A stretch of 64,000 nt of DNA from Acetobacterium woodii (GTDB lineage Bacteria > Bacillota > Clostridia > Eubacteriales > Eubacteriaceae), in NCBI GenBank assembly GCA_016213825.1, contig JACQZP010000016.1, positions 186,001-250,000 of the forward strand, written 5' to 3'. Position numbers and translations under genes: made by a program. Below, in pieces: positions 34,980 to 56,194 of the stretch. Under the pieces are notes generated by a model. The model was not told where the DNA came from, did not search any database, and saw only the letters and a list, made by a program, of their open reading frames with translations. Position 1 is the first letter of the stretch, and the number at the start of each line of letters is the position of its first letter.

Positions 34980-35711
34980 TCAGTTTCGGTATTCATATTT
35001 TAATTTGATTTTATCGCCTCGAAAGACCACTTTCGAGTACTCAAAAGGTTTATCATCCTTATCATAGAGAATGTCCTCCAAAACAAGTAACGGATATCCA
35101 TGGGGTACTTTTAAAAGTTTGCTTTCTTTTTCCGAAGCGGTAACCGATTCGAACGTCTCCATGACGCGGCTGGGTTTTAAATTATATTCTCGCTCTAAAA
35201 GAACACAAAGTTGTTCTTCCTCAAGCGCACGATCACTTAGATTTTTACACAAATCATAAGGAATCCGAGAATAATGAAGACTAATGGGTTCACCTTTTAG
35301 AAAACGCAAGCGCTCAATTTCAAGTATTGGTGCTCCTTGCGGACATTGCAGACGCTTTGCGACCGAGAAAGATGCTTCTTTTTCGGTAACATTTAAAAGC
35401 TCAGTGGTAATTTCATACCCCATTCTCTCCAGTTGCTCTCTAAAGCCCATATATGCCAGGGATTCCGTCATTATCTTGGGTTCTGCAACAAAGGTACCTT
35501 TACCAGGGACTCGATAGAGAACACCATCCTGCACCAGCTGTGAGCATGCCGAACGGATTGTCATTCGACTTACTCCATAAATACGGTTCATTTCACTTTC
35601 CGATGGTATTGCTGTATTCGGCTTCCAAATGCCTTCTTCGATATTATTGCGGATTAACTCTTCCAATTGTATGTACAATGGTTTCGGGTTTTCTCGCTTA
35701 ATTTTGTACAT
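34980..35711 (-). CDS. GntR family regulator with UTRA domain
   Basis: 243 residues. Winged helix (about 3-70) with IRNNIEEGIWKPNTAIPSE, MNRIYGVSRMTIRSACSQLV and VPGKGTFVAEPKI; then a UTRA effector domain (about 90-240) with GAPILEIERLRFLKGEPISLH and YPLLVLEDILYDKDDKPFEYSKVVFRG. UTRA regulators of the HutC subfamily bind sugar phosphates or similar small acids. I chose the ATG at 35711, behind GGAAGGA; an ATG six codons earlier is possible. It sits at the downstream end of the 21-kb sugar cluster and is the best candidate to bind the GTNNTCATRAC motif at three of its promoters. The effector is unknown. Confidence 0.92.
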   Translation of the reverse strand: MYKIKRENPKPLYIQLEELIRNNIEEGIWKPNTAIPSESEMNRIYGVSRMTIRSACSQLVQDGVLYRVPGKGTFVAEPKIMTESLAYMGFREQLERMGYEITTELLNVTEKEASFSVAKRLQCPQGAPILEIERLRFLKGEPISLHYSRIPYDLCKNLSDRALEEEQLCVLLEREYNLKPSRVMETFESVTASEKESKLLKVPHGYPLLVLEDILYDKDDKPFEYSKVVFRGDKIKLKYEYRN

Positions 35712-35827
35712 ATCAATACTTCCTTCCATAAAACTCCTTCGTGCAGCTTAATTAACAAAATTTCTTCCATTTTATCATAGACGCTATTGAATTAAAAGAG
35801 TGATCCGTTAAAATTGCTCAATTCTGT

Positions 35828-37369
35828 TTATTTTAATTTGGCAAATTGAGCGTAGAGGCTATTTTCATTTAAGGCGGTATACAAATTTTTATAAATGTCA
35901 TAAATTTCGTTATATCTTTTGACATTTTCAGGTATCGGCTCAATTGTTTCCAGATAGCGAACCATTGAACTGACACCTTCGGTAACATCCTTAAACCATC
36001 CTGCACCGACCCCTGCTATAACTGCCGCTCCAACGATGGTTGCGTCAGGTATTTCCAGTTTTCGAATTGGAACCCCAAACATATCAGCAATTATGTGTCG
36101 CCATGCTTCGGATTTTGTCGCTCCGCCTGTTATGGCCAGTTGTTTCAAAATAACCCCGGATTTTTTCATGTTTTCATACATATCCTTACTTTCCAGCGTG
36201 ATACCTTCCATGACCGAACGAATCATGTCACTCTTAGAATGAGCGAATGTAATACCGGCAAAGATGCCCTTTGCTTCAGGATTCCAATACGGATAACCTG
36301 ACCCGGTCAGAAACGGCATGAACACAATTCCCTTCGCTCCCACCGGACTTTTCTGAATATGATAATCCATCACTTCATAAGGATCCATTCCGATTTTTTT
36401 TCCAAATGCAACTTCGATCTCAGCCAACTCATCCCTTGCCCAACGATAACTGCTGGCAGCCCCCAGTTGGATTCCCTCAAGATTGAATAATCCTAATAGC
36501 GCCGACGAGGTTGCCATGACCCCGGGAACATCTTCCAACACCAATTTTTTTGTGCCGACAACCAGAAGTCCTGCTGTCCCCAGCGTTAATGATGCGTAAC
36601 CATCTTCGATAACGCCGGCACCAATGGCTGCACACTGCTGATCGCCACTTCCTGCAACTAAGAGCGTACCGACAGCCAGGCCAGTTTTTTCGGCAACTGC
36701 TGGAGTTACTTTTCCGACAATATCACCAGGTTTCACTAATTTTGGCAGCTTTTCCTTATCAATCCCAAACGCATCAATAATATTATCAGCCCAGTCCATC
36801 GTATTAGGATTAAGATAGCCTGACGTACAGGCATTGGTCGCTTCACAATAGAAATCGTCCGCACCAAAACAGTATTGGATATACTCCGGCATCATCGCCA
36901 CATATTTTGTTTTTTCATATAGTTCTGGTCTTTTTTTCATTAACCATAACAATTTGATAAACGTGAAGGTTGGCGTCATTGGCATGCCCGTGCTTTTAAA
37001 AAATGTATCCGGATCGATAATGGCCATGGCGTCTTCAAGAATTTCCGCTCCACGGTTGTCCTGCCAACCATAAAATACATTCTCAATGGCTTCATTGTTT
37101 TTATCGACCAGCGTAAACGTTGCCCGTTGACAGGAAAATCCAACTGCCTCAATTTCCTTCGGGTCAAGTCCTGAAACGGTGACCGCTTGTTTGCATGCTT
37201 TATAGGTTTCCTCAACAAGTAAATCCACATCCTGCTCAACCCAATTGGAATTTGGATAATTACAAGGATATTCTCCATACCCTTTTCCATAGATTTTTCC
37301 TTCTTTGTCAAGTATCATCGCTTTTGTGCCAGTTGTTCCCACATCAATACCGATTAAATATTTACCCAT
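35828..37369 (-). CDS. FGGY family sugar kinase (xylulokinase-like)
   Basis: 513 residues. N-terminal phosphate loop YLIGIDVGTTGTKAMILDKEG, WVEQDVDLLVEETY, GFSCQRATFTLVDKN near 80, then VAGSGDQQCAAIGAGVIEDG near 235 and LAITGGATKSEAWRHIIADMFG near 400. It is an intact ATP-dependent kinase of the FGGY class, nearer to xylulokinase than to glycerol kinase, but sequence reading cannot fix the substrate; ketopentoses, branched ketoses or polyols such as erythritol are all possible. In the same direction lie transketolase halves, aldolases and phosphatases, so its product probably enters those. The ATG at 37369 follows an AGAAGGAG site. Confidence 0.88.
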   Translation of the reverse strand: MGKYLIGIDVGTTGTKAMILDKEGKIYGKGYGEYPCNYPNSNWVEQDVDLLVEETYKACKQAVTVSGLDPKEIEAVGFSCQRATFTLVDKNNEAIENVFYGWQDNRGAEILEDAMAIIDPDTFFKSTGMPMTPTFTFIKLLWLMKKRPELYEKTKYVAMMPEYIQYCFGADDFYCEATNACTSGYLNPNTMDWADNIIDAFGIDKEKLPKLVKPGDIVGKVTPAVAEKTGLAVGTLLVAGSGDQQCAAIGAGVIEDGYASLTLGTAGLLVVGTKKLVLEDVPGVMATSSALLGLFNLEGIQLGAASSYRWARDELAEIEVAFGKKIGMDPYEVMDYHIQKSPVGAKGIVFMPFLTGSGYPYWNPEAKGIFAGITFAHSKSDMIRSVMEGITLESKDMYENMKKSGVILKQLAITGGATKSEAWRHIIADMFGVPIRKLEIPDATIVGAAVIAGVGAGWFKDVTEGVSSMVRYLETIEPIPENVKRYNEIYDIYKNLYTALNENSLYAQFAKLK

Positions 37370-37477
37370 ATCAAATTCTCCTTCTAATAATAAAAATTAA
37401 CATCTGCGCCATGTATTAATTTAATATTATGCCTAGTATCAGGGAATTTTGTTCAGCCTTTGATGAAACTTTTTGAT

Positions 37478-38197
37478 TTAGCCTTTGTATTGGGGAACCA
37501 GTCCAATCTCACGCATTTGATCAAACGCATCGATAATTGCGACTGCCGCTCGCGTACCAATCAGATCAGCTCCTGCCAGAATGAATACATAAGCATTTTG
37601 AGGACGTGGGAATTTAACACCTGCAACCTTGAGTTTGACACCAGTTTCAGATAACGTCTTTTTCATAATTAAAAACTGTTCCATACTTGGCCCTTCAAAT
37701 TGGCCGGTTGAAGTTTTTGCATAATGAATTCCCACTTCGGCAATCAATTTGCAGGCTGTTGCGATTTCCTCATCGCTTAAAAAGCAGGTTTCAATAATGC
37801 ATTTGGTGATTTGTCCCTGTGCAGCAGTTTTAAAATCCATTAACTCACGCTTAATCACATCATATCTTTTGTCTTTCAACGCACCAACGTTCATCACCAG
37901 GTCTAAAACCGTACACCCGGCTTTTACTGCATATTCCGTTTCAAAAGCCTTAACGATCGATGATGATGCTCCAAAGGGAAAATCCAGGCCGGTTCCAATA
38001 AGAATATCTGTTCCTTTCAGTTCTTCCACCACCACTGGCGTCCAATAAGGTGTCGCAGAGTAAAACGCTGCACAATTATAGGCGACTGCCTCACGACAAC
38101 CAGATCGGATTTCAGCTTCCGTGGTGTTTTTTGGCAACACCGAATGATCAAAACACTTTCCCAGGGCTTTTTTATCCATTTTTGATAAATCAACCAT
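37478..38197 (-). CDS. DeoC-like aldolase (deoxyribose-phosphate aldolase family)
   Basis: 239 residues of the DeoC class I aldolase family. The N-terminus KCFDHSVLPKNTTEAEIRSG matches the LDHTxLKP block with changes. The Schiff-base lysine is in IHYAKTSTGQFEGPS near 167, and the second conserved lysine in VKLKVAGVKF near 195, although the usual GGIRT end is replaced by KFPRPQNAYVF. DERA splits 2-deoxyribose-5-phosphate to acetaldehyde and glyceraldehyde-3-phosphate; given the altered motifs another phosphoketose may be used here. AGGAGG precedes the start at 38197, which is 25 bases after the HAD gene stop. Confidence 0.8.
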   Translation of the reverse strand: MVDLSKMDKKALGKCFDHSVLPKNTTEAEIRSGCREAVAYNCAAFYSATPYWTPVVVEELKGTDILIGTGLDFPFGASSSIVKAFETEYAVKAGCTVLDLVMNVGALKDKRYDVIKRELMDFKTAAQGQITKCIIETCFLSDEEIATACKLIAEVGIHYAKTSTGQFEGPSMEQFLIMKKTLSETGVKLKVAGVKFPRPQNAYVFILAGADLIGTRAAVAIIDAFDQMREIGLVPQYKG

Positions 38198-38221
38198 AAC
38201 TTCATGCCTCCTATAGTTTTT

Positions 38222-38896
38222 TTATAAAACAACTTTTTTAAGTTCTTCCATACTATCAATAACATAGGTTGGATTTAATGATCTGACAATCTCCGGGTCT
38301 CCATATCCAAACGTAACACCGCAAACAGCAATGCCTGCATTTGTTCCGGTGAGATAATCGGTTTTTGTATCCCCAATAAGAATCGCTTGGGTCTTACTGC
38401 AATTATAATACGCGAGAATCGCATTAATACAATCTGGATGAGGTTTTGGATTTTTTACGTCATCTGCTGTCACCAAGATGTCAAAATAATCAAATAATTT
38501 AAGTGTTTTTAAAATTTTTTCAGTTGCGCTTCGTATTTTGAAAGTAGCCACTGACAATGCTTTTCCTTTCTGCTTATAGTACTCTAATACATCTGCTACA
38601 CCGGCATAAGCAAATGTTTTTTTATCACAGTTCGCGGTGTAATAATCAACAAACAGTGGCAATATTTCATGATCAATAAGGGTTTCTTTGTCCTCACCTA
38701 GGGATTTGATGAGGACATTTCTTGCCCCCCCACCAATGCAGCTTCGTATAAACGCATCCTCTTTCCTATCAAAACCATAACGATCAATAATAAATTTAAT
38801 CGTTTCAATTATATCCGGACAAGAATCTACCAAGGTTCCATCCAAATCAAAAATAATATACGGATACGCATTGGGTTCCATATTTTTTATTATCAC
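38222..38896 (-). CDS. HAD family phosphatase (phosphoglycolate phosphatase-like)
   Basis: 224 residues, HAD subfamily IA. Motif I IIFDLDGTLVDSCPDII near 15, a helical cap (about 30-95), motif II/III region VATFKIRSATEKILK near 120 and motif IV AILIGDTKTDYLTGTNAGIAV near 170. The cap and length resemble Gph/PpaX. In this cluster it could remove phosphate from a toxic by-product such as phosphoglycolate or from a pathway sugar phosphate; the substrate is not evident. The start is GTG at 38896, six bases after GGAGG. A cre-like site overlaps the region just before its ribosome site. Confidence 0.83.
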   Translation of the reverse strand: MIIKNMEPNAYPYIIFDLDGTLVDSCPDIIETIKFIIDRYGFDRKEDAFIRSCIGGGARNVLIKSLGEDKETLIDHEILPLFVDYYTANCDKKTFAYAGVADVLEYYKQKGKALSVATFKIRSATEKILKTLKLFDYFDILVTADDVKNPKPHPDCINAILAYYNCSKTQAILIGDTKTDYLTGTNAGIAVCGVTFGYGDPEIVRSLNPTYVIDSMEELKKVVL

Positions 38897-38907
38897 GACC
38901 AGCCTCC

Positions 38908-38921
38908 TTTAAACGTTTACA
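38908..38921 (-). promoter_or_regulatory. cre-like site before the HAD gene
   Basis: The minus strand reads TGTAAACGTTTAAA, matching the CcpA-site consensus TGWAANCGNTNWCA except for one base. It lies immediately before the ribosome site of the HAD gene. A similar AGAAAACGTTTAAC is found at 45770-45783. A single short site like this may be chance. Confidence 0.35.
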
Positions 38922-38939: not shown

Positions 38940-39881
38940 TCACAGATTTCTTAAAAGCTCGTTGCTGTTAAAATACTCCAGGGTAACGCCGCACTCGCCA
39001 ATGTTCCTGACATTTTTATCGGTCTTTTTATAGTCAGCATGATAATCAGAACCACCTGAAATAATCTTAACCCGATCCTGGTAATCGGCTTTGATCTTGG
39101 CAATGATTTCTTCCTTCGTATAAGGCCCATTATAGGTAGTCTTATCATAGGTATAGCAGGCTTCAATCCCATCCAGACCGAGATCAATCAGTTGATCAAT
39201 ATAATCCGCTCTGGACATCGTCCCGTTGTTGGTTGTAACGGTTTCATCAATGAGATAGGGATGAGCCAAAATGGCAATACCACCACTCTCATGGGCAATA
39301 TTGATGATGTCAACAGGGTCTGGTTTTTCACGTTTTACACTGAAATCAGGATTATTTCTGATCAATAATTTTGCATCGCTCCAGGTTTTTGTATAACCTT
39401 TTTCAGCCATCAGATTAAAAATGATTTTTTTCTGAACGTCCTCGGGTTTTCTCGGAATATCATCATAATTCAAAACTTCATCCCATGTTATATCATATCC
39501 ATTATCTGCCAGTATATCTAAAAGTTTTTGATATGAAAATATTTTACTTTTGATGATCTTCTGATTCATTTCGAGTATTTTAGGATTAGTATAATCGCAT
39601 CCCAGTACAACAATATGAACATCCTCGACCTGTGTTTCACAGGAAAATTCGATTCCCGGTATCAATTTCAGCCCTTTTTTCTTTGCATAAAGAACGGGAT
39701 CGACCATCACACCATTTACTTCGATTTGATCGGGTGGCAAAACATCATGATCGGTAATGACGATCACTTTCATTCCTAGCGCGGCCGCGTTGGAAATAAA
39801 TTCTTTAGGTGAATCCCCGCCATCGGATCGGGTGGTATGACTATGTAAATCTACAATGTAATTTGGTTGTGTTGTCATCAT
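38940..39881 (-). CDS. PHP domain phosphoesterase
   Basis: 313 residues. Metal-binding blocks of the PHP family: YIVDLHSHTTRSDGGDSPKE at residues 8-27, VIVITDHDVLPP near 40, GIEFSCETQVEDVHIVVLG near 75, GIAILAHPYLID near 215 and GGSDYHADYKK near 285. It resembles the stand-alone YciV/TrpH-type phosphatases that hydrolyse nucleoside bisphosphates or sugar phosphates. Between an aldolase and a HAD phosphatase it could hydrolyse a pathway phosphate such as a bisphosphate. The ribosome site GAGGGGG overlaps the stop region of the aldolase gene, so the two are coupled. Confidence 0.85.
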   Translation of the reverse strand: MMTTQPNYIVDLHSHTTRSDGGDSPKEFISNAAALGMKVIVITDHDVLPPDQIEVNGVMVDPVLYAKKKGLKLIPGIEFSCETQVEDVHIVVLGCDYTNPKILEMNQKIIKSKIFSYQKLLDILADNGYDITWDEVLNYDDIPRKPEDVQKKIIFNLMAEKGYTKTWSDAKLLIRNNPDFSVKREKPDPVDIINIAHESGGIAILAHPYLIDETVTTNNGTMSRADYIDQLIDLGLDGIEACYTYDKTTYNGPYTKEEIIAKIKADYQDRVKIISGGSDYHADYKKTDKNVRNIGECGVTLEYFNSNELLRNL

Positions 39882-39890: not shown

Positions 39891-40739
39891 CTAATCCATC
39901 AGACTAAAAAATCGGATGTGCTCGGTCACTACCTTTTTAACTGCTTGTTTTGTGAAGGCATCCAACTTAAGCGGATCATTCTGATCAGGATTTTCTTTGC
40001 TGAAAGTTGCCATTCCCTGACAGTATGCAATTTTTATCGCAGTCGAAATATTCACCTTTGAAGCACCCAAACCAATTAATCGATGAAACATTTCATCACT
40101 CAGCCCCGTTCCGCCATGGAGAACCAACGGACAAAGTGAAAATTCATTGATTTCTTCAAAAAGATCGTAATCAATTTTAATTTCACCTTTATAGACGCCA
40201 TGTGCTGTTCCGATGGCAGGGGCAAATGCATCAACGCCTGTTTCTTTCAAATAGATTCGACAATCTGCTGGTTTAGCATGAGCATGATCACCTTCTTTTA
40301 CGACAATGTCATCTTCAACGCCGACAATAGCACCTAACTCACCTTCAACCGTGACATTCTTAGGTTTGGCGTAGGCCACGATTTCCATTGTGTTCTTTAT
40401 ATTGTCCGTTAATGGCAACTGCGAACCATCGTACATAACTGAAGACCAGCCGCCATCAATGCATGCCTTTGTAAATGCGACATCGGTTGAGTGATCAAGA
40501 TGAATTGCTACATTTACCCGAGCATTTTCGGCGATGGGTTTTAGAAAACCCATCATTTCTTGAATCCCAAAAGCTTTTACCGTTTTAACCGAGGTCTGAA
40601 TGATAATATTCTGATTCAGTTCCTCGGCCGCTTCAACTGCCGCCTTTGCGGTCAGATAATTCACGATGTTAAACGCGCCAACTGCATAATGATCTTTTCG
40701 AGCATTCTCAAGAATCGCTTCCATGTTGACATAACTCAT
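39891..40739 (-). CDS. Class II ketose-(bis)phosphate aldolase, copy 1
   Basis: 282 residues of the class II FBA/GatY/KbaY family. Catalytic and zinc residues: HLDHSTDVAFTKACIDGG near 80, VEGELGAIVGVEDD near 130, the zinc histidines in IGTAHGVYKGEIKID near 175 and LHGGTGLSDEMFHRL near 205. The reaction would be reversible cleavage of a ketose-1-phosphate or 1,6-bisphosphate to DHAP plus an aldehyde. I chose the ATG at 40739 (MSYVNMEAIL) after GAGGCG; upstream in-frame codons to 40805 cross the promoter motif. A near copy lies at 51928-52785 with a similar upstream region, so this looks like a duplication within the cluster. Confidence 0.92.
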   Translation of the reverse strand: MSYVNMEAILENARKDHYAVGAFNIVNYLTAKAAVEAAEELNQNIIIQTSVKTVKAFGIQEMMGFLKPIAENARVNVAIHLDHSTDVAFTKACIDGGWSSVMYDGSQLPLTDNIKNTMEIVAYAKPKNVTVEGELGAIVGVEDDIVVKEGDHAHAKPADCRIYLKETGVDAFAPAIGTAHGVYKGEIKIDYDLFEEINEFSLCPLVLHGGTGLSDEMFHRLIGLGASKVNISTAIKIAYCQGMATFSKENPDQNDPLKLDAFTKQAVKKVVTEHIRFFSLMD

Positions 40740-40785
40740 GGTTATCGCCTCATTTCTATTATATCTCATCATACATGCGTATGAT

Positions 40786-40813
40786 GGGTTATGATTACTT
40801 TCCACTTATTATA
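40786..40813 (-). promoter_or_regulatory. Promoter and candidate GntR operator of aldolase copy 1
   Basis: On the minus strand a TATAAT (complement of 40808-40813) is followed ten bases later by GTAATCATAACCC (complement of 40786-40798). The -35 box is poor. The same motif, GTGGTCATAACCC, follows the -10 box of aldolase copy 2, and GTGGTCATGAC that of the transketolase operon. The stretch 40767-40798 matches the region before copy 2 at 27 of 32 bases and includes the inverted repeat CATCATAC-N4-GTATGATG. The rest of 40814-40949 shows nothing clear. Confidence 0.55.
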
Positions 40814-40949
40814 TCATAATTTTACAAAAATATAATGACAAAAATCTATCTAACACCTGCTTTTTTATGCATTGAGCACAACTTATCACAACACTGTACG
40901 TGAAAAACAAGCTTGGTAAACTATTTTAATAAGATCATTTGACTTTTTC

Positions 40950-41318
40950 TCAGGAAACTTTTTTTATATTCCGGGTACAGACCAGATCCACACCGGTTCC
41001 AGCAATATTTGATACAACAACATCTCCGACGCTAATCGGTGATTCAATTTCCAATGCACTAATCACATTCATCACTTCAAATATTTTCTCTTTATTAACC
41101 GGTTCTTTTGTTTTAACAGGCACAAAAGGCAGCTCGCCAGATTTTAATTTTACGGTAGTTGTTATTGTTCTCTTAGGCTCAGTGAACTCCGTTTTCGCAT
41201 ATTTCAAACCTATTTTACAACTATAATCACTGATTTCATGTATGGTTTTTTCGGTGTGCTCAATTTTCAGACTACACCCTTTCGGGCAACCAATACAGAT
41301 AAATTTTTTCACTTCCAT
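40950..41318 (-). CDS. DUF1667 cysteine protein of the glycerol-3-phosphate oxidation module 2
   Basis: 122 residues, similar over its length to the module 1 protein. N-terminal KKFICIGCPKGCSLKIEH carries three cysteines in the same spacing and SDYSCKIGLKYAKTEF the fourth near 35. The C-terminal IGDVVVSNIAGTGVDLVCTRN is the family end; one additional cysteine occurs there. It is the last of the GlpA-like, FAD oxidoreductase, DUF1667 set on the minus strand, 17 bases after the oxidoreductase. No clear terminator follows before the divergent-looking gap in front of aldolase copy 1. Its role in electron transfer is inferred from context only. Confidence 0.86.
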   Translation of the reverse strand: MEVKKFICIGCPKGCSLKIEHTEKTIHEISDYSCKIGLKYAKTEFTEPKRTITTTVKLKSGELPFVPVKTKEPVNKEKIFEVMNVISALEIESPISVGDVVVSNIAGTGVDLVCTRNIKKVS

Positions 41319-41335
41319 GATTTTACACCTCCATC

Positions 41336-42613
41336 TTATTGCGCTTGTTCCTTAGTAATTGAAATATCAATTGATGAAGTATCTTTAGTCACAAACTCCC
41401 TTGATAAATTAAAAGTTACCATGGTTCCAGGCTCAACGATTGTTTTTTTAAGATTCAGTAGTGTTTTATTAAAATTATCTTTGACGATTAATCGAACTTC
41501 CTCATCTGGATTCTTCACTCTAAGAAAAAACTTAATGGTTTGCTCCTGGTGGTTCAGCGCATCAATATGCTGAGGAACGACATACCCGATGTTTTTATCA
41601 TGGGTGACAATAACATCCTTTTCTTCTTTATTCATTTTATGATTAATAAAATCAGCTGCTGCTTTCCCGGCAATTTCTGCTTCCTGAGTGACATTATCAA
41701 CTAAATCATGAACGTGCAGAACATTTCCGCAAGCGAATACCCAAGGGATATTGGTAATCCGTTTTTCATTTACTACCGGTCCTCTAGTGACCTTATCTAT
41801 TTCACAGCCTAAATTGTTTGATAATTCATTTTCTGGAATCAAGCCAACCGATAGCAGCAGTGTGTCACAGCTTACATATTGTTCGGTGCCTTCGATCGGT
41901 TTGAGCTTTTCATCTACTTTTGCAATGGTCACGCCTTCCAGTCTTTCTTTTCCGTGCACTTCAATAATAGCATGGCTTAATAGCAGGGGAATGCCAAAAT
42001 CATCGAGACATTGTACCTTGTTGCGGATCAGTCCCGTCGAATAGGGCATCACTTCAACGACTCCCTTGACATTAACACCTTCAAGTGTTAATCGTCTTGC
42101 CATAATGAGACCAATATCTCCAGAGCCCAGAATGGCGACCTCTTTGCCGGGAAGATAGCCTTCCAGATTAACATAACTTTGGGCAGTGCCTGCTGTCATA
42201 ATCCCGGAAGGACGGCTCCCTGGTATGGTGATGGCACCGCGTGTCCGTTCTCGACATCCCATTGCCAGAATTAATGCCTTCGTACCAATCTGAAACATTC
42301 CCTCTTCACGATTAACAGCAATCACTTTTTTGTCATCCCTGATTTCCATAACCATGGTTCCCAGTTTTACGTCAATGTCTGAATTTTCCAATTCTTCAAT
42401 AAAACGGCTTGCATATTCAGGTCCGGTCAATTCTTCTTTAAAATATTGCAAGCCAAAACCATTATGGATACACTGATTCAAAATGCCACCCAAATGCGGC
42501 GCTCGTTCACAAATCAAAATTTTTGAGACCCCATTTTTTTTCGCTTCCAATGCGGCGGCAAGGCCTGCCGGTCCGCCACCAATAATGACTAAGTCATACT
42601 CTGATTTTTTCAT
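41336..42613 (-). CDS. NAD(P)/FAD-dependent oxidoreductase, partner of the GlpA-like dehydrogenase (module 2)
   Basis: 425 residues. FAD site LVIIGGGPAGLAAALEAKK, LNQCIHNGFGLQYFKEELTG near 45, second dinucleotide site VAILGSGDIGLIMARRL near 165 and WVFACGNVLHVHDLVDNV near 300, all as in the module 1 copy, from which it differs mostly in the C-terminal 100 residues. It overlaps the end of the GlpA-like gene by 20 bases, a sign of tight coupling. It probably completes electron flow from the dehydrogenase; acceptor unknown. AAGGAG precedes the ATG at 42613. Confidence 0.85.
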   Translation of the reverse strand: MKKSEYDLVIIGGGPAGLAAALEAKKNGVSKILICERAPHLGGILNQCIHNGFGLQYFKEELTGPEYASRFIEELENSDIDVKLGTMVMEIRDDKKVIAVNREEGMFQIGTKALILAMGCRERTRGAITIPGSRPSGIMTAGTAQSYVNLEGYLPGKEVAILGSGDIGLIMARRLTLEGVNVKGVVEVMPYSTGLIRNKVQCLDDFGIPLLLSHAIIEVHGKERLEGVTIAKVDEKLKPIEGTEQYVSCDTLLLSVGLIPENELSNNLGCEIDKVTRGPVVNEKRITNIPWVFACGNVLHVHDLVDNVTQEAEIAGKAAADFINHKMNKEEKDVIVTHDKNIGYVVPQHIDALNHQEQTIKFFLRVKNPDEEVRLIVKDNFNKTLLNLKKTIVEPGTMVTFNLSREFVTKDTSSIDISITKEQAQ

Positions 42614-44093: not shown

Positions 44094-44194
44094 GGTGTCA
44101 CCTCCAAATTCATTTTCATATTTTTGATTTGGGCGGCGCTTACATTGGCCACATATAAACGCCCCCGGTATTTAAATTATATTCGTGCTACTGT

Positions 44195-45700: not shown

Positions 45701-45725
45701 CCGATAATACCACCTTTTCTTTATT

Positions 45726-45783
45726 AAAAAATGCTATGGCAAGCATTTTTTTTAAATTAAAATTACCTTGTTAAACGTTTTCT
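45726..45783 (-). promoter_or_regulatory. Leader hairpin and cre-like site before glpK2
   Basis: On the minus strand AAAAAATGCT and AGCATTTTTT (complement of 45726-45751) form a 10-bp stem with a six-base loop ending in T residues, 25 bases before the glpK2 start, like a weak terminator in the leader. Just upstream AGAAAACGTTTAAC (complement of 45770-45783) resembles a CcpA site. The other bases up to 45906 encode only very short frames without ribosome sites. Confidence 0.45.
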
Positions 45784-45906
45784 TTTTATGTAAAATCAGT
45801 TCTTTTTCAATTTCACGATTAGTACTCATGATTTAGTATTTTTACACCAAATATCATTGGGTTCTTATTTTCTTTTAACATAAGCGCCTTCGGTCGAATT
45901 TCATCC

Positions 45907-45943
45907 AAAAAATTTGCATCAATTCATCGTTATAGCATTGATG
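45907..45943 (-). terminator. Possible terminator after the lipoate ligase gene
   Basis: CATCAAT and ATTGATG form a 7-bp stem with a 13-base loop on the minus strand, followed by CAAATTTTTT. It lies about 24 bases after the stop of the lipoate ligase gene. The stem is short and AT-rich. Confidence 0.45.
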
Positions 45944-45966
45944 ATACCTATCCTGTGTTATATTAT

Positions 45967-46956: not shown

Positions 46957-47061
46957 AATCAGCTCACCTCATTCGTTTCAAACCTTTGTTGCTCATAAAT
47001 TATTGAGTGCCCTTTTAAGGCACTGCAATACTCGCGTTTTTCTAAATCGTCATCACTCATA

Positions 47062-48459: not shown

Positions 48460-48519
48460 TATTTATCTCCTGTTATGAATTATCCGTCACAGATTGTCGC
48501 CTGAACTTTTTTCGGTTCT

Positions 48520-49758: not shown

Positions 49759-49778
49759 AATAAACACTCCTTCACAAT

Positions 49779-50753
49779 TTATTCAAATGTTTTACGTACT
49801 GCTGCGATAATATCTTCTTTTTTAGGTGTGCACATCGCTTCCAGACCTTCATTGTATGCTACTGGAGAGTTCTTGCTGCCAAGACGTTGAGGTGGTGCAT
49901 CCAATAAATCAAAACCACGGTCAATGATTTCACCGACTATTTCACCCGCAATCGATCCCCGCAATGGTGCTTCGGTGACGACAACAACACGACTTGTCTT
50001 CTTGATCGATTCCATCACAGTGTCATAATCCAGCGGCAACAGTGATCGCAAATCAATAACTTCACAGCTGATTCCTTCTTTTTCCAATTCGATAGCAGCT
50101 GCTTCTGCCACATAAGTCATATAGGAATAAGCTACAATTGTACAATCGGTTCCAGTTTTGCGAATCGCTGCTTTTCCGATTGGGACCAGATATTCACCAT
50201 CTGGAACTTCACCTTTCATGGAGTAATTTCGTTTATGTTCAAAGCAGATAACTGGTCCATTATCGCGGATGGCCGATTTAAGCATCCCTTTCATATCGTA
50301 GGGGGTAGACGGTGTAATGACTTTTAAACCCGGAACATGGACAAACCAGTTTTCATTGTTCTGCGAATGCTGAGCGGCAACACCACCACCAACACCAAAA
50401 GGTGCCCGGATAACAATTGGCACATTTGCCTGTCCCCCGAACATATAACATGTTTTTGCAGCCGTATTGACAATATTATCCATTGGCAAAGTGATCCAGT
50501 CAGCATATAATATTTCAACCAACGGACGCATCCCGGCAATCGCCGCACCAACACCAAGTCCCGTGAATGCAGCTTCCGAAATCGGGGTATCGATAACCCG
50601 TTTTTCACCATATTCATTCATGAGACCTTTTGTTATCCCAAATGGATTTCCGCGGAGTCCAACATCGCAACCCATGATAAATACGTTTTCATCCAGGGCC
50701 ATTTCTTCCCTTAATGCCTGGGTAATGGATTCTCTAAGTGTAATGATTGACAT
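49779..50753 (-). CDS. TPP-dependent dehydrogenase E1 beta subunit (AcoB-like)
   Basis: 324 residues of the E1 beta/transketolase-C type. MGCDVGLRGNPFGITKGLMNEYG near 28, the TPP-contacting glutamate in VIDTPISEAAFTGLGVGAA near 55, IVIRAPFGVGGGVAAQHSQ near 110, VVVVTEAPLRGSIAGEI near 250 and AYNEGLEA near the C-terminus. These are shared by acetoin and pyruvate dehydrogenases. It lies between E1 alpha and E2 with short gaps and has a strong AGGAGATAAAAATT leader. Acetoin dehydrogenases would give acetaldehyde and acetyl-CoA; acetogens normally use ferredoxin-linked PFOR for pyruvate, which favours acetoin or a related ketone as substrate, as inference. Confidence 0.92.
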   Translation of the reverse strand: MSIITLRESITQALREEMALDENVFIMGCDVGLRGNPFGITKGLMNEYGEKRVIDTPISEAAFTGLGVGAAIAGMRPLVEILYADWITLPMDNIVNTAAKTCYMFGGQANVPIVIRAPFGVGGGVAAQHSQNNENWFVHVPGLKVITPSTPYDMKGMLKSAIRDNGPVICFEHKRNYSMKGEVPDGEYLVPIGKAAIRKTGTDCTIVAYSYMTYVAEAAAIELEKEGISCEVIDLRSLLPLDYDTVMESIKKTSRVVVVTEAPLRGSIAGEIVGEIIDRGFDLLDAPPQRLGSKNSPVAYNEGLEAMCTPKKEDIIAAVRKTFE

Positions 50754-50804
50754 AATTTTTATCTCCTAATCTTCGTTTTATAATCTCACTAGTTGATACA
50801 GTGT

Positions 50805-51854
50805 TTACTTGATAACTTCGCCATCTGCATAAATGTAGTCATAGAAAGTATCAGGAGAGGGTTCATGGCATTGAGTATCTGCGTATTCGATGGACGCCTC
50901 AACCTTTTTCATTGCTTCCGCTTCAATCGCTTCCAATTCAGCTGGTGTGGCAATCTTGTTTTCAACCATAAATTCACCCATTCGTTTAATTGGTTCAATT
51001 TCCCAATATTTATCACATACTGACATATCACGATACCAGCTGTCATCGGTTGCGTGATGTCCCAGCATTCTCATGGTTTTACATTCGATAAAAGTCGGTC
51101 CTTCACCAGCTCGGGCCCGCTCAATGGCAGCCTTAGCGGTTTCCCATATTTGATAAATATTATAGCCATCACATCGACAGCTGGGAATACCAAAGCCAAT
51201 GCCGCGTTTATAAAGATCGGGTTCACCGGTTATTCGGGCATAATCGGTGGCAATAGCCCACTGGTTATTTTCACAGACAAAAATAACCGGAAGTTTCCAA
51301 GCTGCGGCCATGTTCATTGATTCTGAAACAGACCCCGCGTTGGCACCACCATCGCCGAAAAATACAACGGTTACATCATCCGTGCCCTTGATCCAACTTT
51401 TTAAGGCACTTCCAACAGCTGGTGCTACTGCCGCCCCAACAATACCGCTGGCTCCAAGCATCCCAATGCTCATATCACTGATGTGCATTGAACCGCCACG
51501 ACCCTTGTTATAGCCTTCTTCTTTTCCAAACAACTCGGCCATCATTTTATTGATATTGCCACCTTTGGCGATCAAATGACCATGTCCACGATGGGTTGAA
51601 CCAACATAGTCCTCTTTTTTTAATTGCGTAATAATAGCTGTGGCAATGGCTTCTTCGGTAATATATGGATGATAATATCCATGAACTTTATTCGCCATCC
51701 AGAGCGGCTTAACTGCTTCCTCAAACTTGCGCATGAGCCACATGATACTGTACATTCTGATTTGCTCTTCGCGATCCAGTCCTTCTGGACTATACATTTC
51801 TGCATAAGCATCAAATTCTTTTTTGAGTTCTTCAATACACTTGGAATCTTTCAT
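50805..51854 (-). CDS. TPP-dependent dehydrogenase E1 alpha subunit (AcoA-like)
   Basis: 349 residues. The TPP motif FFGDGGANAGSVSESMNMAA...CENNQWAIAT (about 170-208) is intact, preceded by STHRGHGHLIAKGGNINKMM near 87 and NKGRGGSMHISD near 117 typical for AcoA/PdhA. A longer N-terminus than usual (about 20 extra residues) is present, and the C-terminus ends EPSPDTFYDYIYAD as in acetoin E1. GAGGAG precedes the ATG at 51854. It heads the E1-E2-E3-lplA run and follows aldolase copy 2 by 73 bases, probably on the same transcript. Confidence 0.92.
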   Translation of the reverse strand: MKDSKCIEELKKEFDAYAEMYSPEGLDREEQIRMYSIMWLMRKFEEAVKPLWMANKVHGYYHPYITEEAIATAIITQLKKEDYVGSTHRGHGHLIAKGGNINKMMAELFGKEEGYNKGRGGSMHISDMSIGMLGASGIVGAAVAPAVGSALKSWIKGTDDVTVVFFGDGGANAGSVSESMNMAAAWKLPVIFVCENNQWAIATDYARITGEPDLYKRGIGFGIPSCRCDGYNIYQIWETAKAAIERARAGEGPTFIECKTMRMLGHHATDDSWYRDMSVCDKYWEIEPIKRMGEFMVENKIATPAELEAIEAEAMKKVEASIEYADTQCHEPSPDTFYDYIYADGEVIK

Positions 51855-51927
51855 TATTGTTCTCCTCGTATTTTAATTATCGTTAACCAGTTTAATTATC
51901 AATAACTTGGCAGTAGACTTTATTCTA

Positions 51928-52785
51928 TTAATTCTGTTTGTCTCTCACACTAAAGAATTGGATGTGTTGGTTCACAACTTTTTTTAGTCGATCTTTGGTA
52001 AAGGCATCCAGTTTAAGTGGATCATTCTGGTCAGGATTCATTTTAGTGTAGGTTGCCATTCCCTGACAATATGCAATTTTAATTGCAGTTGAAATATTAA
52101 CCTTTGAAGCACCTAAGGCAATCAGTTTATGAAACATTTCATCAGTTAATCCAGTCCCGCCATGCAGTACTAGTGGGCAGGACGAAAATTGATTGATTTC
52201 TTCAAATAGATCGTAATCGATATTGATTTCACCTTTGTAGACGCCGTGAGCAGTTCCCACCGCTGGTGCAAAAGCATCGATTCCGGTTTCTCTTAAATAA
52301 ATCCGGCAATCTTCCGGTCTTGCATGGGCAGAATTTCCTTCGATCACCACAATATCATCTTCAACGCCGACAATGGCACCCAATTCACCTTCGACCGTAA
52401 CCTTTTTATCTTTTGCATAAGTCACAATTTCTTTTGTATTCTTTATATTTTCTTCCAGAGACAACTGCGAACCATCATACATTACCGATGACCAGCCGCC
52501 ATTAATGCAGGCTTTTGTAAACCCGACATCTGTGGAATGATCCAGATGGATCGCCACATTCACCTTTGCATTTTCAGCGATAGGTTTTAAAAAAACCATC
52601 ATTTCATCCACCCCAAAGGCCTTCACCGTTTTTACAGATGTTTGAAGAATAATTGGTTGTTCAAGTTCCTCTGCTGCTTCAACAGCGGCCTTCGCTGTAA
52701 GGTAGTTGACGATATTAAATGCCCCAACTGCATAATGATTTTTTCTTGCGTCGCTAAGAATTGCTTCCATATTCACATAACTCAT
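51928..52785 (-). CDS. Class II ketose-(bis)phosphate aldolase, copy 2
   Basis: 285 residues, by eye largely identical to copy 1 (39891-40739), with the same metal and catalytic blocks: HLDHSTDVGFTKACINGG, VEGELGAIVGVEDD, VGTAHGVYKGEINID and LHGGTGLTDEMFHKL. Differences cluster at residues 40-60, 100-120 and the C-terminus (HIQFFSVRDKQN against HIRFFSLMD). The start at 52785 lies eight bases after AGAGG; a GTG three codons earlier would overlap the ribosome site. It opens the aldolase-E1-E2-E3-lplA run and has its own promoter and operator-like motif. Confidence 0.92.
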   Translation of the reverse strand: MSYVNMEAILSDARKNHYAVGAFNIVNYLTAKAAVEAAEELEQPIILQTSVKTVKAFGVDEMMVFLKPIAENAKVNVAIHLDHSTDVGFTKACINGGWSSVMYDGSQLSLEENIKNTKEIVTYAKDKKVTVEGELGAIVGVEDDIVVIEGNSAHARPEDCRIYLRETGIDAFAPAVGTAHGVYKGEINIDYDLFEEINQFSSCPLVLHGGTGLTDEMFHKLIALGASKVNISTAIKIAYCQGMATYTKMNPDQNDPLKLDAFTKDRLKKVVNQHIQFFSVRDKQN

Positions 52786-52835
52786 GATCATCACCTCTTT
52801 TCAATAAATTTTACGACATCATACATGAATATAAT

Positions 52836-52862
52836 GGGTTATGACCACCTAGAACCAGTATA
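52836..52862 (-). promoter_or_regulatory. Promoter and candidate GntR operator of aldolase copy 2
   Basis: On the minus strand TATACT (complement of 52857-52862) is followed eight bases later by GTGGTCATAACCC (complement of 52836-52848). The -35 candidate TTTATT at 17-base spacing is weak. The motif is shared with the promoters of the transketolase operon and aldolase copy 1. Confidence 0.6.
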
Positions 52863-52904
52863 ACATAATCTTTTAGAAAAATAAATCATCTCTTAAAATT
52901 TTTA

Positions 52905-54221
52905 TTATTTTTGTCCGTTGGCGGCATTCATAAAGCGACGTTGATACGATACCACCTGATTGCAGGAAGTAAACCTTGCCAGATAGTTTGGCTCAGCAGT
53001 AACGACAATTCGATGAACAAGGTCTTCAAATTCTTTTTCCACTAGCAATTTGTCAATGTCCGGGTAATTGAATTCACCTTCCATGCTACAGATAATAAGT
53101 CTTGTGTCATCCAAATTTGTATTTTTAAAAAGCCTTAAATTATGTCGCACACTATCTAATCCATCAGAGCCTTCGGCATCATTAAAATGACGATATTTTA
53201 ACATATCTTCAGCCATTTTCTTAACTAGCAACAACTCCATTTGAGCCTGATCAATATTGAGATAATCTTTTTCTAAAAACATATCCTGAATATTTTTGAT
53301 AAATTTTGGATTGCCCGTTGCATGATATTGCTTTAAATTCTGATCCATGCTTTCAGATTGAATTAAGCGATGACGGATGAAGCTGTTTACAAAATATGGT
53401 TTTGCCTGTAATGCCAGCGCCGTCTGGTATGGTTCGAACATTAAAGTGAAATTCACTCTAAAACCATGTTCCTTGAGCATCAAAGCCAGATTATGCCCCC
53501 GAAAAGCGCCTTCAGTTGTCACATCAGTGAAGGATTTACCGAGCTTTTTATTTCCTGTAAGAAGTTCAGAAACGTTTACATTTGTAACCGGTCCAGTATG
53601 AGGAACTTTAATAACCACACGATATTCGGAAAGCATTTCTCTGAATTTTTCAGCTTCTTCCAGCAGCTCAGTATCAGACTTACCAAACGGATCATTCAGT
53701 TCAACACTGATGTCTGCTCCCGGTCCGAGGATCCGGCCGATTTCTTCCATTACTTCATCACGCGTTTTAAATTGATTGCCAATGTTAGCCTTTGGGTTAT
53801 TGATAAACAAGTCGTAAATAATACCAGGATTACACGTCAGATTAGCAATCATTTTACTGATCGGCTTTACCTCATAAGGATTGGCCGAATCAGCTGAAAA
53901 AAGAACATTAGTTGGCCTTTTTTTTCCATTTTTTTCATAAGAAATATCCCTAATTAAATCTGCTCTCAGAACCCCATTGGACTCGAGTCGATATTCAACC
54001 CGAAAACCTTCAGGCGTCTCATTTTCCAGTGTTTTAAAGGTAACAATAACATTAATAAATTCCTTGGTCACACCGATTTTTTTTACAAATTTTTTCATAA
54101 AGTCATATTCTACCAATGGCAAATCAAAATTAAAGATGCGATTAACATAGCTCTTTTGATCTTCAATCAGCGAGACATCGTCATTTAATAAGGTATTCAA
54201 AGTACAACTAACAGTCTTCAT
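52905..54221 (-). CDS. Oversized transaldolase-like protein
   Basis: 438 residues. From about residue 106 it follows the transaldolase barrel: LFSADSANPYEVKPISKM (as in the FLDTAN start of transaldolases), ANLTCNPGIIYDLF near 126 (TTNPSLI block), VVIKVPHTGPV near 202 with the likely Schiff-base Lys205, TTEGAFRGHNLALMLKEHGFRVNFTLMFEPYQTALAL near 237-275 (VNVTLIFS/QA block) and VNSFIRHRL near 282. It carries about 105 extra residues in front and a longer C-terminal tail than the 215-residue TalC type, and several usually constant residues differ. It may transfer or cleave a dihydroxyacetone unit on an unusual substrate. It lies between split transketolase and aldolase copy 2, under the transketolase promoter. 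Confidence 0.72.
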   Translation of the reverse strand: MKTVSCTLNTLLNDDVSLIEDQKSYVNRIFNFDLPLVEYDFMKKFVKKIGVTKEFINVIVTFKTLENETPEGFRVEYRLESNGVLRADLIRDISYEKNGKKRPTNVLFSADSANPYEVKPISKMIANLTCNPGIIYDLFINNPKANIGNQFKTRDEVMEEIGRILGPGADISVELNDPFGKSDTELLEEAEKFREMLSEYRVVIKVPHTGPVTNVNVSELLTGNKKLGKSFTDVTTEGAFRGHNLALMLKEHGFRVNFTLMFEPYQTALALQAKPYFVNSFIRHRLIQSESMDQNLKQYHATGNPKFIKNIQDMFLEKDYLNIDQAQMELLLVKKMAEDMLKYRHFNDAEGSDGLDSVRHNLRLFKNTNLDDTRLIICSMEGEFNYPDIDKLLVEKEFEDLVHRIVVTAEPNYLARFTSCNQVVSYQRRFMNAANGQK

Positions 54222-54248
54222 TTTTATCTCCTCTAAATTTATTCTATA

Positions 54249-55196
54249 TTATTTTTGAATCACATTTAAAATCCGATCAACGACCTTTTCCCAGGTAAGA
54301 CCGTAGGTTTCCAATAATTCCCGATAGGGGCCGGTATTAATGGAACCATCGGTAATACCAATAAGATGAATCGGTCCGCCATGTTTTACTGGACCCAACG
54401 CTTCCACTACGGCACTGCCAAAACCGCCGATTTCCGAATGTTCTTCTAACGTAAATAAATATTTCGCATCTTTATATGCTTCATAAAGGAGCTCTGTATC
54501 CAATGGTTTTACCGTTGTAAAATTCAGAACTTTTACTCCATATCCCATTTCATCCAAGATTTTTCCAGTCATTAGACCATCAACCGTCAATGTTCCAGAA
54601 ACTGCAATCACGATCTCATCTCCGGTATTCATTAAAACTTCACCTTTTCCCAATTTGAAATGGCGTTGTGACACTTCTAAGGGCTCTGCCATGGAGTGAC
54701 GTGGCATTCGGATATAAACTGGCCCCTTGTGTTTAATAGCTTCCCGTAATGACATTTCCACTTCATAACTGTCACCAGGATTCAAAACCACCATGTTAGG
54801 TATGACACGCATCAGTGACAAATCTTCAATCGCTTGATGTGTTGATCCAAGCGCTGAATGAGACAAGCCGCTACTTGACCCAATTACTTTTACATTCATA
54901 TTGGCATAACCTAAATCATTACGAACTTGCTCAAAAGCACGCATCGAGATAAACGGTGCAATCGCTGATACGACTGGAATAAAACCGCCTTCAGCTAACC
55001 CGGCACAAACGCCAATTGCATTCTGTTCGTTGATTCCTACCTCTAAATATTGATGAGGTAACGCTTGCTTGAAGGGGTTCATACCCGATCCAGCCCCTGA
55101 ATCACAAGACACCGCCATAATTCGCTTGTTTTCTCTACCGAGATCGAGCAAAGCATTCCCAAACGCATCTCGAGGATTAAGTTTCTTTTCAGTCAT
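54249..55196 (-). CDS. Transketolase C-terminal subunit
   Basis: 315 residues corresponding to the pyrimidine-binding and C-terminal domains of transketolase. MAVSCDSGAGSGMNPF near 25, the catalytic glutamate in YLEVGINEQNAIGVCAGLAEGG near 50, SHSALGSTHQAIEDLSLMRVIP near 108 and LFTLEEHSEIGGFGSAVVE near 240. The start at 55196 overlaps the stop of the N-terminal subunit gene in an ATGA, so the two subunits are made in coupled fashion. Split transketolases occur in many Firmicutes and in dedicated sugar pathways such as apiose degradation. Confidence 0.93.
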   Translation of the reverse strand: MTEKKLNPRDAFGNALLDLGRENKRIMAVSCDSGAGSGMNPFKQALPHQYLEVGINEQNAIGVCAGLAEGGFIPVVSAIAPFISMRAFEQVRNDLGYANMNVKVIGSSSGLSHSALGSTHQAIEDLSLMRVIPNMVVLNPGDSYEVEMSLREAIKHKGPVYIRMPRHSMAEPLEVSQRHFKLGKGEVLMNTGDEIVIAVSGTLTVDGLMTGKILDEMGYGVKVLNFTTVKPLDTELLYEAYKDAKYLFTLEEHSEIGGFGSAVVEALGPVKHGGPIHLIGITDGSINTGPYRELLETYGLTWEKVVDRILNVIQK

Positions 55197-56038
55197 ATCG
55201 TCCATCCTTTTTCTTTTGCATATTTTTCAAGTGCAAAAATTGCATCTTTGGATTCTTTTGAATTTTTACCCGGATTCCAATGGTGATATTTCACGTTACC
55301 TTCAGCAAAAGGCATTCCTTTACTTTTGGTGGTATTTGCAATAACCATGCTCGGCTTTCCTTTTTGGAACGGGATTGATTGAAATGTACTAAAAAGTTCC
55401 TCAATATTATGTCCATCCACAACTTTTACTGACCATCCAAAAGTTGCATATTTTTCTCGTAAATCTCTGGTGTCTAAAACGTCCCGGGTACTCCCATTTA
55501 TTTGAAGTCCATTCCTGTCGATGATGCCAACAAGATTATCCAAACCATGATGACTCGCAAACATTGCCGCTTCCCAATTGGAGCCTTCGCCCTGCTCGCC
55601 ATCGCCCATCAGAACAAAAACCCGATTTTTATCGCCTTTAAGCTTTGCACTTAATGCCATGCCAGAACCAATCGGCAAACCATGTCCCAAAGCTCCGGAA
55701 CTAAAATCAACACCGTTGAATTTTTTCATGTCTGGATGACCCGGCACAATTGATCCCAACATGTTGTAAGTTTCCATTACATCCGGTTCTTCAAATCCCT
55801 TTTCAATCAGAGTTCCATAAAGCCCCAAACATTTATGTCCCGCACTCAGAATGAACCGATCTCGCTGGGCCCATTTTGGCTCATCGACGTTAATATCCAT
55901 AATGCCAAAATATAATGTTGCTAAAATATCTGTGCAGGATAGTGAAGGTCCCGCATGACCATCCCCATTATTAATTACCGTATTAACAATGTGTTTTCGA
56001 ATACTAAACGCTTTTTTTTCAATGGATTCTGTTATCAT
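55193..56038 (-). CDS. Transketolase N-terminal subunit
   Basis: 281 residues corresponding to the diphosphate-binding domain. GDGHAGPSLSCTDILATLYFG near 25, FILSAGHKCLGLYGTLIEKG near 63, SSGALGHGLPIGSGMALSAK near 112, the TPP motif VLMGDGEQGEGSNWEAAMFAS with GIIDRNGLQIN near 145-180, and KGKPSMVIANTTKSKGMPFAEG near 230. With the C-terminal subunit it moves C2 ketol units between sugar phosphates. It is the first gene of the 21-kb minus-strand cluster and has the cluster's best promoter in front. Confidence 0.94.
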   Translation of the reverse strand: MITESIEKKAFSIRKHIVNTVINNGDGHAGPSLSCTDILATLYFGIMDINVDEPKWAQRDRFILSAGHKCLGLYGTLIEKGFEEPDVMETYNMLGSIVPGHPDMKKFNGVDFSSGALGHGLPIGSGMALSAKLKGDKNRVFVLMGDGEQGEGSNWEAAMFASHHGLDNLVGIIDRNGLQINGSTRDVLDTRDLREKYATFGWSVKVVDGHNIEELFSTFQSIPFQKGKPSMVIANTTKSKGMPFAEGNVKYHHWNPGKNSKESKDAIFALEKYAKEKGWTI

Positions 56039-56140
56039 TGAATCTCTCCTTTAAAAGTTGTAAATTTAACAATACAATTATCTGGACTAAAATCAGGAAA
56101 TGAGGAACATATGCTATGATCAATTCCCGACCTATCATAA

Positions 56141-56194
56141 GTGGTCATGACTAGTTCTTATAAGCAGTATATGCAAGAATAATAAATTTGTCAA
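56141..56194 (-). promoter_or_regulatory. Promoter and candidate GntR operator of the transketolase operon
   Basis: On the minus strand TTGACA (complement of 56189-56194) and TATACT (complement of 56166-56171) are separated by 17 bases, a strong sigma-A promoter. About 14 bases after the -10 box comes GTCATGACCAC (56141-56151, GTGGTCATGAC on the plus strand) inside a larger imperfect inverted repeat ATAAG...CTTAT (56138-56161). The position over the start of transcription suits a repressor. The leader of about 120 bases to the gene shows no other clear element. Confidence 0.72.

Follow-up and report, generated by a model that had tools for sequence, protein, structure and literature searches.

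The closest described counterparts of the system considered here are the sulfo-transketolase/sulfo-transaldolase (sulfo-TK/sulfo-TAL) pathways, in which C2 and C3 units are handed to glyceraldehyde-3-phosphate according to the accessible portions of two papers (PMC9594981, PMC11659671), and two gene sets of Acetobacterium woodii tabulated in the available part of a third (PMC10472528), namely Awo_c12730-12770 under glycerol metabolism and Awo_c01690-01720, with the regulator Awo_c01730, under acetoin metabolism; in the text of the same source Awo_c01690-01720 is called a potential pyruvate/acetoin dehydrogenase. A gene cluster with likenesses to each of them was analyzed in a 64,000-nucleotide stretch (the window; positions 186001-250000 of contig C4, JACQZP010000016.1) of a 3.94 Mb assembly in 37 contigs (GCA_016213825.1, G000), whose nearest named relatives found were Acetobacterium. 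No description of such a system was found in searches of openly licensed PubMed Central papers. We read the cluster as dedicated to the catabolism, under GntR control, of an unusual C4 to C6 ketose, or of a polyol yielding it, with a probability of roughly 0.45.

The cluster consists of 19 consecutive open reading frames (ORFs) on the minus strand at 34980-56038, from gntR (34980-35729) to tktN (55193-56038), with spacing from a 20-nt overlap up to a 266-nt gap. Families were assigned by NCBIfam and Pfam profile searches, with bit scores compared to the family cut-offs, and the profiles matched every gene family named in an initial annotation of the stretch, which had rightly described a co-directional carbohydrate block with two near-identical class II aldolases (FBA1 and FBA2, 84% identity), a glycerol kinase/dehydrogenase module (40950-45700), and neither transporter nor sugar isomerase, none being annotated among the 19 ORFs. 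The right edge that it had drawn, 56194, is where a sigma-70-like promoter begins, and a second, canonical glycerol operon on the plus strand (24668-30123) had gone unmentioned. The 21 kb do not form one conserved unit: the cluster is not uniform and is made up of a core plus an insert, the latter comprising a glycerol-type module and the E1-E2-E3/lipoate ligase genes of a thiamine pyrophosphate (TPP)-dependent dehydrogenase complex.

The core, all on the minus strand, includes a GntR/UTRA regulator that is the probable repressor of the cluster (34980-35729; Pfam UTRA 125.6 bits, GntR 63.6 bits), an FGGY carbohydrate kinase, putatively a ketose kinase (35828-37369; best NCBIfam score xylulokinase, 331.8 bits, below the cut-off of 380.25), a DERA-like (DeoC-like) aldolase of a divergent subfamily (37478-38197; DeoC 153.6 bits, cut-off 117.3), a phosphoglycolate-phosphatase-like HAD phosphatase (38222-38896; NCBIfam 154.1 bits, below the cut-off of 225), a PHP-domain phosphoesterase (38940-39881; Pfam PHP 46.2 bits), and the class II aldolases FBA2, of ketose-bisphosphate type (39891-40805; Pfam F_bP_aldolase 284.6 bits), and FBA1, the first gene of a second probable transcription unit (51928-52794; Pfam 288.5 bits). 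It is completed by TAL438, a transaldolase-like Schiff-base aldolase of 438 aa with an extra N-terminal part (52905-54221; TAL_FSA 42.1 bits, cut-off 27), and by a split transketolase with its C-terminal half tktC (54249-55205; Pfam Transket_pyr and Transketolase_C) and N-terminal half tktN (55193-56038; Pfam Transketolase_N 157.3 bits), the best solved match of tktN being the split-chain transketolase N half 6yak (221.3 bits).

The conservation of this arrangement was followed through TAL438. In a first round, 61 genomes were searched at E <= 0.001 and gene order was read by BLAST to the window proteins; matches were present in 19 genomes including G000, two of them weak (24-25% identity), G034 having only short fragments at contig ends, and 19 loci (the window and 18 fetched stretches) were compared. 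The long form with glycerol-type and E1-E2-E3 genes occurred in six of the 19 (G000, G010, G011, G009a, G012, and G007), all Acetobacterium, and in the stretches examined the long insert was absent from 11 (G008a, G008b, G002a, G002b, G022, G029, G026, G032, G036, G001, and G015); the G003 locus is interrupted by a contig end, and G009b has E1-E2-E3 genes with other kinases and SDRs.

In a second round, a scan of named genomes gave 123 TAL438 relatives, of which 80 were kept; by their titles, from which the assignment of the many metagenome bins was taken, they belong to Bacillota, Bacteroidota, Spirochaetota, Synergistota, Actinomycetota, Chloroflexota, Planctomycetota, Acidobacteriota, and others. 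Eight families were scored at a threshold of at least 30% identity in the 72 loci, many of them short contigs, in which TAL438 was called by a simple ORF caller (L115, L116, L120, L125, L126, L133, L135, and L143 were set aside): split transketolase was found in 36, GntR in 29, DeoC in 27 (57 copies), FGGY in 23, FBA in 20, PHP in 16, RpiB in 14, and HAD in 12, and at least four of the eight were present in 22. Most of these genes share the strand of TAL438 (transketolase genes 73/77, DeoC 51/57, FGGY 21/24, FBA 18/20, PHP 17/17), and TAL438 itself is rare, with matches in ten of 341 class-level sampled genomes at E <= 1e-50. The gene set is more than chance, since a core of it is met again near TAL438 in other genera, for the most part on the TAL438 strand; the initial annotation had allowed that its blocks might never co-occur elsewhere, and for the core their co-occurrence was seen.

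A second line of evidence comes from a GGTCATRACC-like palindrome, which was first spotted by reading the intergenic stretches and then tested, the discovery set being also the first test set. Two copies of a CTGGTCATGACCAG-like palindrome were located in the window, one just below the promoter of tktN and one ahead of FBA1-acoABCL-lplA. The former site, within AACTAGTCATGACCACTT (56143-56152, minus strand), lies between the -10 element and tktN; the sigma-70-like promoter (TTGACA-17-TATACT, 56166-56194, minus strand, 11/12 matches) is the joint best of 62 sites in the scanned region 40700-56400, for which shuffles average 44.0 sites. The latter, within AGGTGGTCATAACCCATT (52837-52846, minus strand), is 43 nt upstream of FBA1 and has directly before it an extended -10-like element read by eye, TGTTATACT. 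Among the first-round loci, 17 of 19 carry an intergenic palindrome upstream of a core gene, the palindrome-free ones being G036a, whose GntR is only 50% identical, and G009b, where no GntR was labelled. When the 80 named loci were searched with the 16-nt consensus at up to three mismatches, 19 matches were obtained, of which 12 lie upstream of core genes; simple pair-block shuffles predict 4.2 matches in total. In our reading, the putative GntR regulator controls two promoters, those of tktN-tktC-TAL438 and of FBA1-acoA-acoB-acoC-acoL-lplA, and the TPP complex appears to be co-regulated with the transketolase and TAL438, because the palindrome precedes both units. Nine distinct sites of the 12-nt pattern are present in G000, two in the cluster, six inside ORFs, and one between genes reading as flagellar, and this genome-wide search revealed no transporter in a fitting place. 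A generic HutC-type scan (GT-N-TA-N-AC) gave seven scattered matches in the window, and terminators were uninformative (12 found, 13.1 expected).

The predicted model of TAL438 (predicted local distance difference test score, pLDDT, 92.7) has the transaldolase TIM-barrel fold. Compared with TalB and the short archaeal and bacterial transaldolases, TAL438 carries roughly 105 additional residues at its N-terminus and a long helical segment ahead of strand 7; its length is about double that of the solved short enzymes. Its catalytic residues D111, E174, K205, N257, T259, and F281 are invariant in 40/40 sequences, and we take their counterparts in Escherichia coli transaldolase to be D17, E96, K132, N154/T156, and F178; entry titles of solved structures include transaldolase D17, E96, T156, and F178, as well as mutants at the Glu/Phe class positions. 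The Glu and Phe of TAL438 are of transaldolase type rather than of fructose-6-phosphate-aldolase type (Gln, Tyr), a pair of positions that presumably separates the two enzymes. The phosphate-binding arginines of the E. coli enzyme, which we assume to be R181 and R228, would correspond by strand order to H284 (34/40) and E381 (37/40) in TAL438, the C-terminal strands having remained unaligned in a profile alignment to two short transaldolases; R283 (39/40) and R285 (40/40) flank H284 and could substitute. The phosphate-binding positions of TAL438 appear changed.

A comparable pattern was observed in the DeoC-like proteins, in which the catalytic D99, K161, and K190 are kept in 41/41, and the phosphate loop of canonical DERA, represented by the canonical DeoC found elsewhere in G000 (240.5 bits), is replaced in most members by a KFPRPQN-type loop, with K195 in 35/41 and R198 in 35/41. 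Position 216 is R (36) or Q (5) in all 41, whereas the canonical G000 copy has Ser, and the GTS of DeoC has given way to Arg- or Gln-containing forms in the cluster-type proteins, of which up to four paralogues occur in one locus; these paralogues keep their catalytic residues and appear to have changed phosphate-binding positions. An FGGY relative, 58% identical, stands beside DeoC and near TAL438 in L075. Apparent FBA-PHP fusion ORFs of 595-611 aa were detected in six of the 80 named loci (L066, L079, L082, L100, L105, and L110), in addition to G009b, whose fusion ORF begins like FBA; the fusions cluster together over most of their length (one labelled by its FBA half, five by the PHP half), which suggests that the PHP phosphatase acts on the aldolase product.

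The recurring gene set, the common predicted promoter-operator sites, the catalytic residues, and the folds were computed here, and from them we infer all reactions and the substrate class of the pathway. A ketose or its phosphate would be provided by a polyol kinase paired with a dehydrogenase (here the modified GlpK-like module, in relatives with other dehydrogenases), by the FGGY kinase, or by both; from it the split transketolase and TAL438 would remove C2 and C3 (dihydroxyacetone) units and hand them to glyceraldehyde-3-phosphate, yielding xylulose-5-phosphate and fructose-6-phosphate in the manner of sulfo-TK/sulfo-TAL; the remaining pieces might be cut or rebuilt by the DERA-like enzyme and by the class II aldolase, whose partner phosphatase would be PHP; and in Acetobacterium the E1-E2-E3 complex may oxidise an acyloin-like or 2-oxo fragment to acyl-CoA. 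The route through kinase, transketolase/transaldolase, and aldolase for a ketose or polyol, as first proposed in the initial annotation, is still the best reading, with the exception that a tetritol as sole input has become less likely. Dehydrogenases that read as polyol-type (names by sequence reading) were noted around TAL438 in the 72 loci, namely GldA in 5, iron-dependent alcohol dehydrogenase in 4, and AraM-like in 3. Further neighbours of TAL438 also favour the reading: E1 genes adjoin it in G009b and L113, and Dak1/Dak2 genes lie within about 5 kb of it in L073, L084, L131, L143, and G130. Like the sulfo-TK/sulfo-TAL systems (SqwGH, SqwI, SqwF; SqvA), the cluster has a split transketolase and a transaldolase-family enzyme, and its relatives also have an isomerase of the RpiB family and what appear to be metal-dependent alcohol dehydrogenases; it differs by the addition of an FGGY kinase, DERA-like paralogues, a class II aldolase paired with PHP, and a dehydrogenase complex of TPP type, and by the absence of an SqvD-family isomerase from G000. 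A bolder version, which we regard as rather doubtful, is an undescribed pathway in several phyla in which long transaldolases and DERA paralogues would work on a ketose with a non-phosphate tail, the Acetobacterium TPP complex, in the same regulon, oxidising an acyloin-like leftover (e.g., a 1-deoxyketose) directly to acetyl-CoA. As acetogens convert simple carbon compounds to acetate and have a use in gas fermentation, a self-regulated 21-kb sugar/polyol cluster hints at an untried growth substrate of these organisms; its core defines two directly assayable enzyme subfamilies (TAL438 and the KFPRPQN-type DERA relatives), and the probable regulator-operator pair would offer a simple readout for finding the inducer.

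Several observations weigh against a single dedicated ketose system. No transporter, isomerase, or known signature enzyme among the 19 ORFs fixes the substrate, and among the 19 first-round loci the full insert is limited to the six of Acetobacterium. None of the eight core families was nearby in 23 of the 72 TAL438 loci, some of them on short contigs, which indicates that TAL438 also serves in other settings, near Dak1/Dak2 genes or beside a 2-hydroxyacid dehydrogenase and a DHDPS-type aldolase. Dihydroxyacetone kinases were present in 12/12 genomes searched, so that Dak presence alone says little, and the Glu and Phe of TAL438 argue against release of free dihydroxyacetone despite such neighbours. 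The altered phosphate-site residues of TAL438 were placed by strand order rather than by superposition. As to the palindrome, G002a and G003a carry it without a GntR gene in the stretch examined, 11 of the 12 core-gene matches belong to first-round genomes (L070 is the sole new one), and in the window it was found upstream of neither the FGGY-DeoC-HAD-PHP-FBA2 block nor the glycerol-type block; the 12-nt pattern is not enriched in G000 (10 matches against 18 for the reversed control) and is therefore not rare by itself.

A somewhat unlikely alternative is an ordinary pentose, pentitol, or tetritol module, in which a dehydrogenase and a kinase would feed xylulose-5-phosphate or erythrose-4-phosphate to the local transketolase, transaldolase, and RpiB, the odd sequences being mere divergence. 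The co-occurrence counts for RpiB (14/72) and transketolase (36/72), the xylulokinase score of the FGGY kinase, and a tkt and rpi operon listed under pentitol catabolism in Clostridiales in the accessible part of PMC6615313 are consistent with it; however, such a module needs neither the DeoC-like paralogues nor a TPP complex, the phosphate-site residues of both TAL438 and DeoC appear altered, and G000 encodes another transketolase pair elsewhere (L002) as well as a further, short transaldolase, the latter within an apparent polysaccharide cluster. These separate transketolase and transaldolase genes also led us to reject a housekeeping pentose-phosphate role.

The insert raises the question of whether a copy of the glycerol operon, an acetoin/2-oxoacid dehydrogenase operon, and a sugar operon are merely neighbours on one strand, a loose super-operon that we hold to be improbable. 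Its TPP part, on the minus strand, encodes a lipoate-protein ligase (lplA, 45967-46956; TIGR00545 395.6 bits, cut-off 280), E3 (acoL, 47062-48459), E2 (acoC, 48520-49767), E1 beta (acoB, 49779-50753), and E1 alpha (acoA, 50805-51854). The absence of both blocks from 11/19 first-round loci and of a common operator before the glycerol-type block would be expected of chance neighbours, but the palindrome precedes FBA1, a gene after which E1-E2-E3-lplA come at spacings of 11-105 nt, and E1 genes adjoin TAL438 in two more loci, G009b and L113 of Bacteroidales. Moreover, the two TAL438 loci of G009 are 90% identical in acoB, 79% in acoA, 71% in acoC, 68% in acoL, 63% in TAL438, and 51% in lplA, as if the complex had joined TAL438 more than once. 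The second of these loci (L060, G009:C1:2726000-2745900) contains the apparent FBA-PHP fusion ORF, two split transketolases, RpiB, two GlpK-like kinases, two SDR-like ORFs, an apparent CdaR-like regulator, and an E1-E2-E3-lplA block.

Acetoin dehydrogenases are E1-E2-E3 complexes, and the architecture of the insert, with the same run of E1 alpha, E1 beta, E2, E3, and lipoate ligase as in the acetoin/pyruvate dehydrogenase complex, could suggest that it encodes the acetoin dehydrogenase of growth on 2,3-butanediol or acetoin. We consider this very improbable. Of five E1 pairs in G000, the in-cluster pair is only 36-44% (alpha) and 48-50% (beta) identical to the other four, and another E1-E2-E3 set, at C26 (L157), adjoins a gene reading as an AcoR-type activator, whereas no AcoR is found among the 19 ORFs, the in-cluster set has a putative operator in common with the transketolase and TAL438, and its neighbours are sugar enzymes. 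In an E1 beta tree of 13 rows with midpoint rooting, the seven TAL438-linked Acetobacterium sequences group at 98/99 with a G130 sequence adjoining (100/99), and those of L113 and of the AcoR-linked set fall elsewhere, the in-cluster E1 thus belonging to a separate group. In the 341 class-level genomes, E1 alpha matches of at least 80% identity were found at three places, namely in the window and in both TAL438 loci of G009; the matches that follow have 50%. By locus number, Awo_c01690-01720, the acetoin-metabolism set in the available part of PMC10472528, would fit the copy located at 192 kb in G009, well away from the TAL438 loci. Acetoin as substrate is held unlikely in view of the paralogue beside the AcoR-like gene and the different E1 group. 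Sets related to the E1-E2-E3 genes of the cluster were also seen in L149 and L150 (G130, G203; acoB 63% in L149), near apparent sugar ABC transporter and LacI-type regulator genes and, in L149, URO-D-type proteins.

A sulfoquinovose (sulfo-TK/sulfo-TAL) cluster is scarcely credible and was rejected for G000, since the SqvD family (PF02952) had no match in that genome and was missing in seven of the nine TAL438 genomes searched, G000 included (it was present in two), no sulfoquinovosidase or sulfonate exporter is annotated among the 19 ORFs, and FGGY, DERA-like, PHP, and GntR proteins are not among the pathway parts in the accessible portions of PMC9594981 and PMC11659671.

The glycerol-type module, on the minus strand, encodes a small protein of 122 aa without NCBIfam match (40950-41318), an FAD oxidoreductase (41336-42613), a glycerol-3-phosphate (G3P)-dehydrogenase-like protein (42594-44093), and a GlpK-like kinase (44195-45700; GlpK 668.4 bits, cut-off 590.35). 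The canonical operon (24668-30123), about 11 kb away, contains GlpK, a 203-aa gene in antiterminator position, G3P dehydrogenase, FAD oxidoreductase, and a small protein. Through L164, this operon matches Awo_c12730-12770 in kind and order and is by identity and order its orthologue; the in-cluster copy has the same gene families without the antiterminator-like gene and is 40-59% identical (kinase 59%, dehydrogenase 40%, FAD oxidoreductase 54% against the canonical operon). In the GlpK-like kinase, TYGTAGVM is present in 6/6 in-cluster copies versus the canonical TYGTGCFM, with NQRE, YFS, and GDQQ kept, and of the two kinases in the second G009 locus one reads TAGVF; we take TYGTGCFM to be the glycerol pocket motif and Phe270 of E. 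coli GlpK to pack against glycerol. The presence of the canonical operon close by, together with the change in the kinase motif, makes plain glycerol use by the in-cluster module unlikely.

As for other substrates, a separate locus of G000 (L163, G000:C13:15000-34900) contains at about 1842-13695 genes for a GlpK-like kinase, DhaK, and an RpiB-family protein, together with others that read as DhaL, PTS-type DhaM-like, and triosephosphate-isomerase-like; it is a candidate tetritol/erythrulose locus, and its presence makes a tetritol less likely as the sole input of the cluster. No tested feature points to apiose, no isomerase being annotated among the 19 ORFs and no dedicated apiose search having been made. 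A membrane protein that is a possible carrier is encoded in the gene runs of L072, L075, and L141, that of L075/L072 having no usable Pfam or NCBIfam match; the relatives in L075 and L141 sit in TAL438-core runs. Its G000 relative (34%), in L147 (G000:C2:20000-39900, 8805-9761, minus strand, no NCBIfam match), lies in an apparent propanediol microcompartment operon and was rejected as the missing transporter.

Other contexts of TAL438 were also recorded. Relatives of D-2-hydroxyacid dehydrogenase adjoin it in L081, L085, L097, L099, L104, and L106 (L085 and L104 by Pfam, the other four by clustering), with relatives of DHDPS-type aldolase and PfkB-type kinase also beside it in L081, L085, L097, and L099; this is perhaps a different, sugar-acid context. 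In L124 and L154, TAL438 and split transketolase occur together with an RpiB-like gene and apparent sulfonate/nitrate-type ABC transporter genes, and L124 also encodes a TauE/SafE-family protein (Pfam), which makes a link to a sulfonated substrate possible. Outside the cluster, an S-adenosylmethionine riboswitch (RF00162, 72.2 bits) was found in the window at 11612-11708 on the minus strand.

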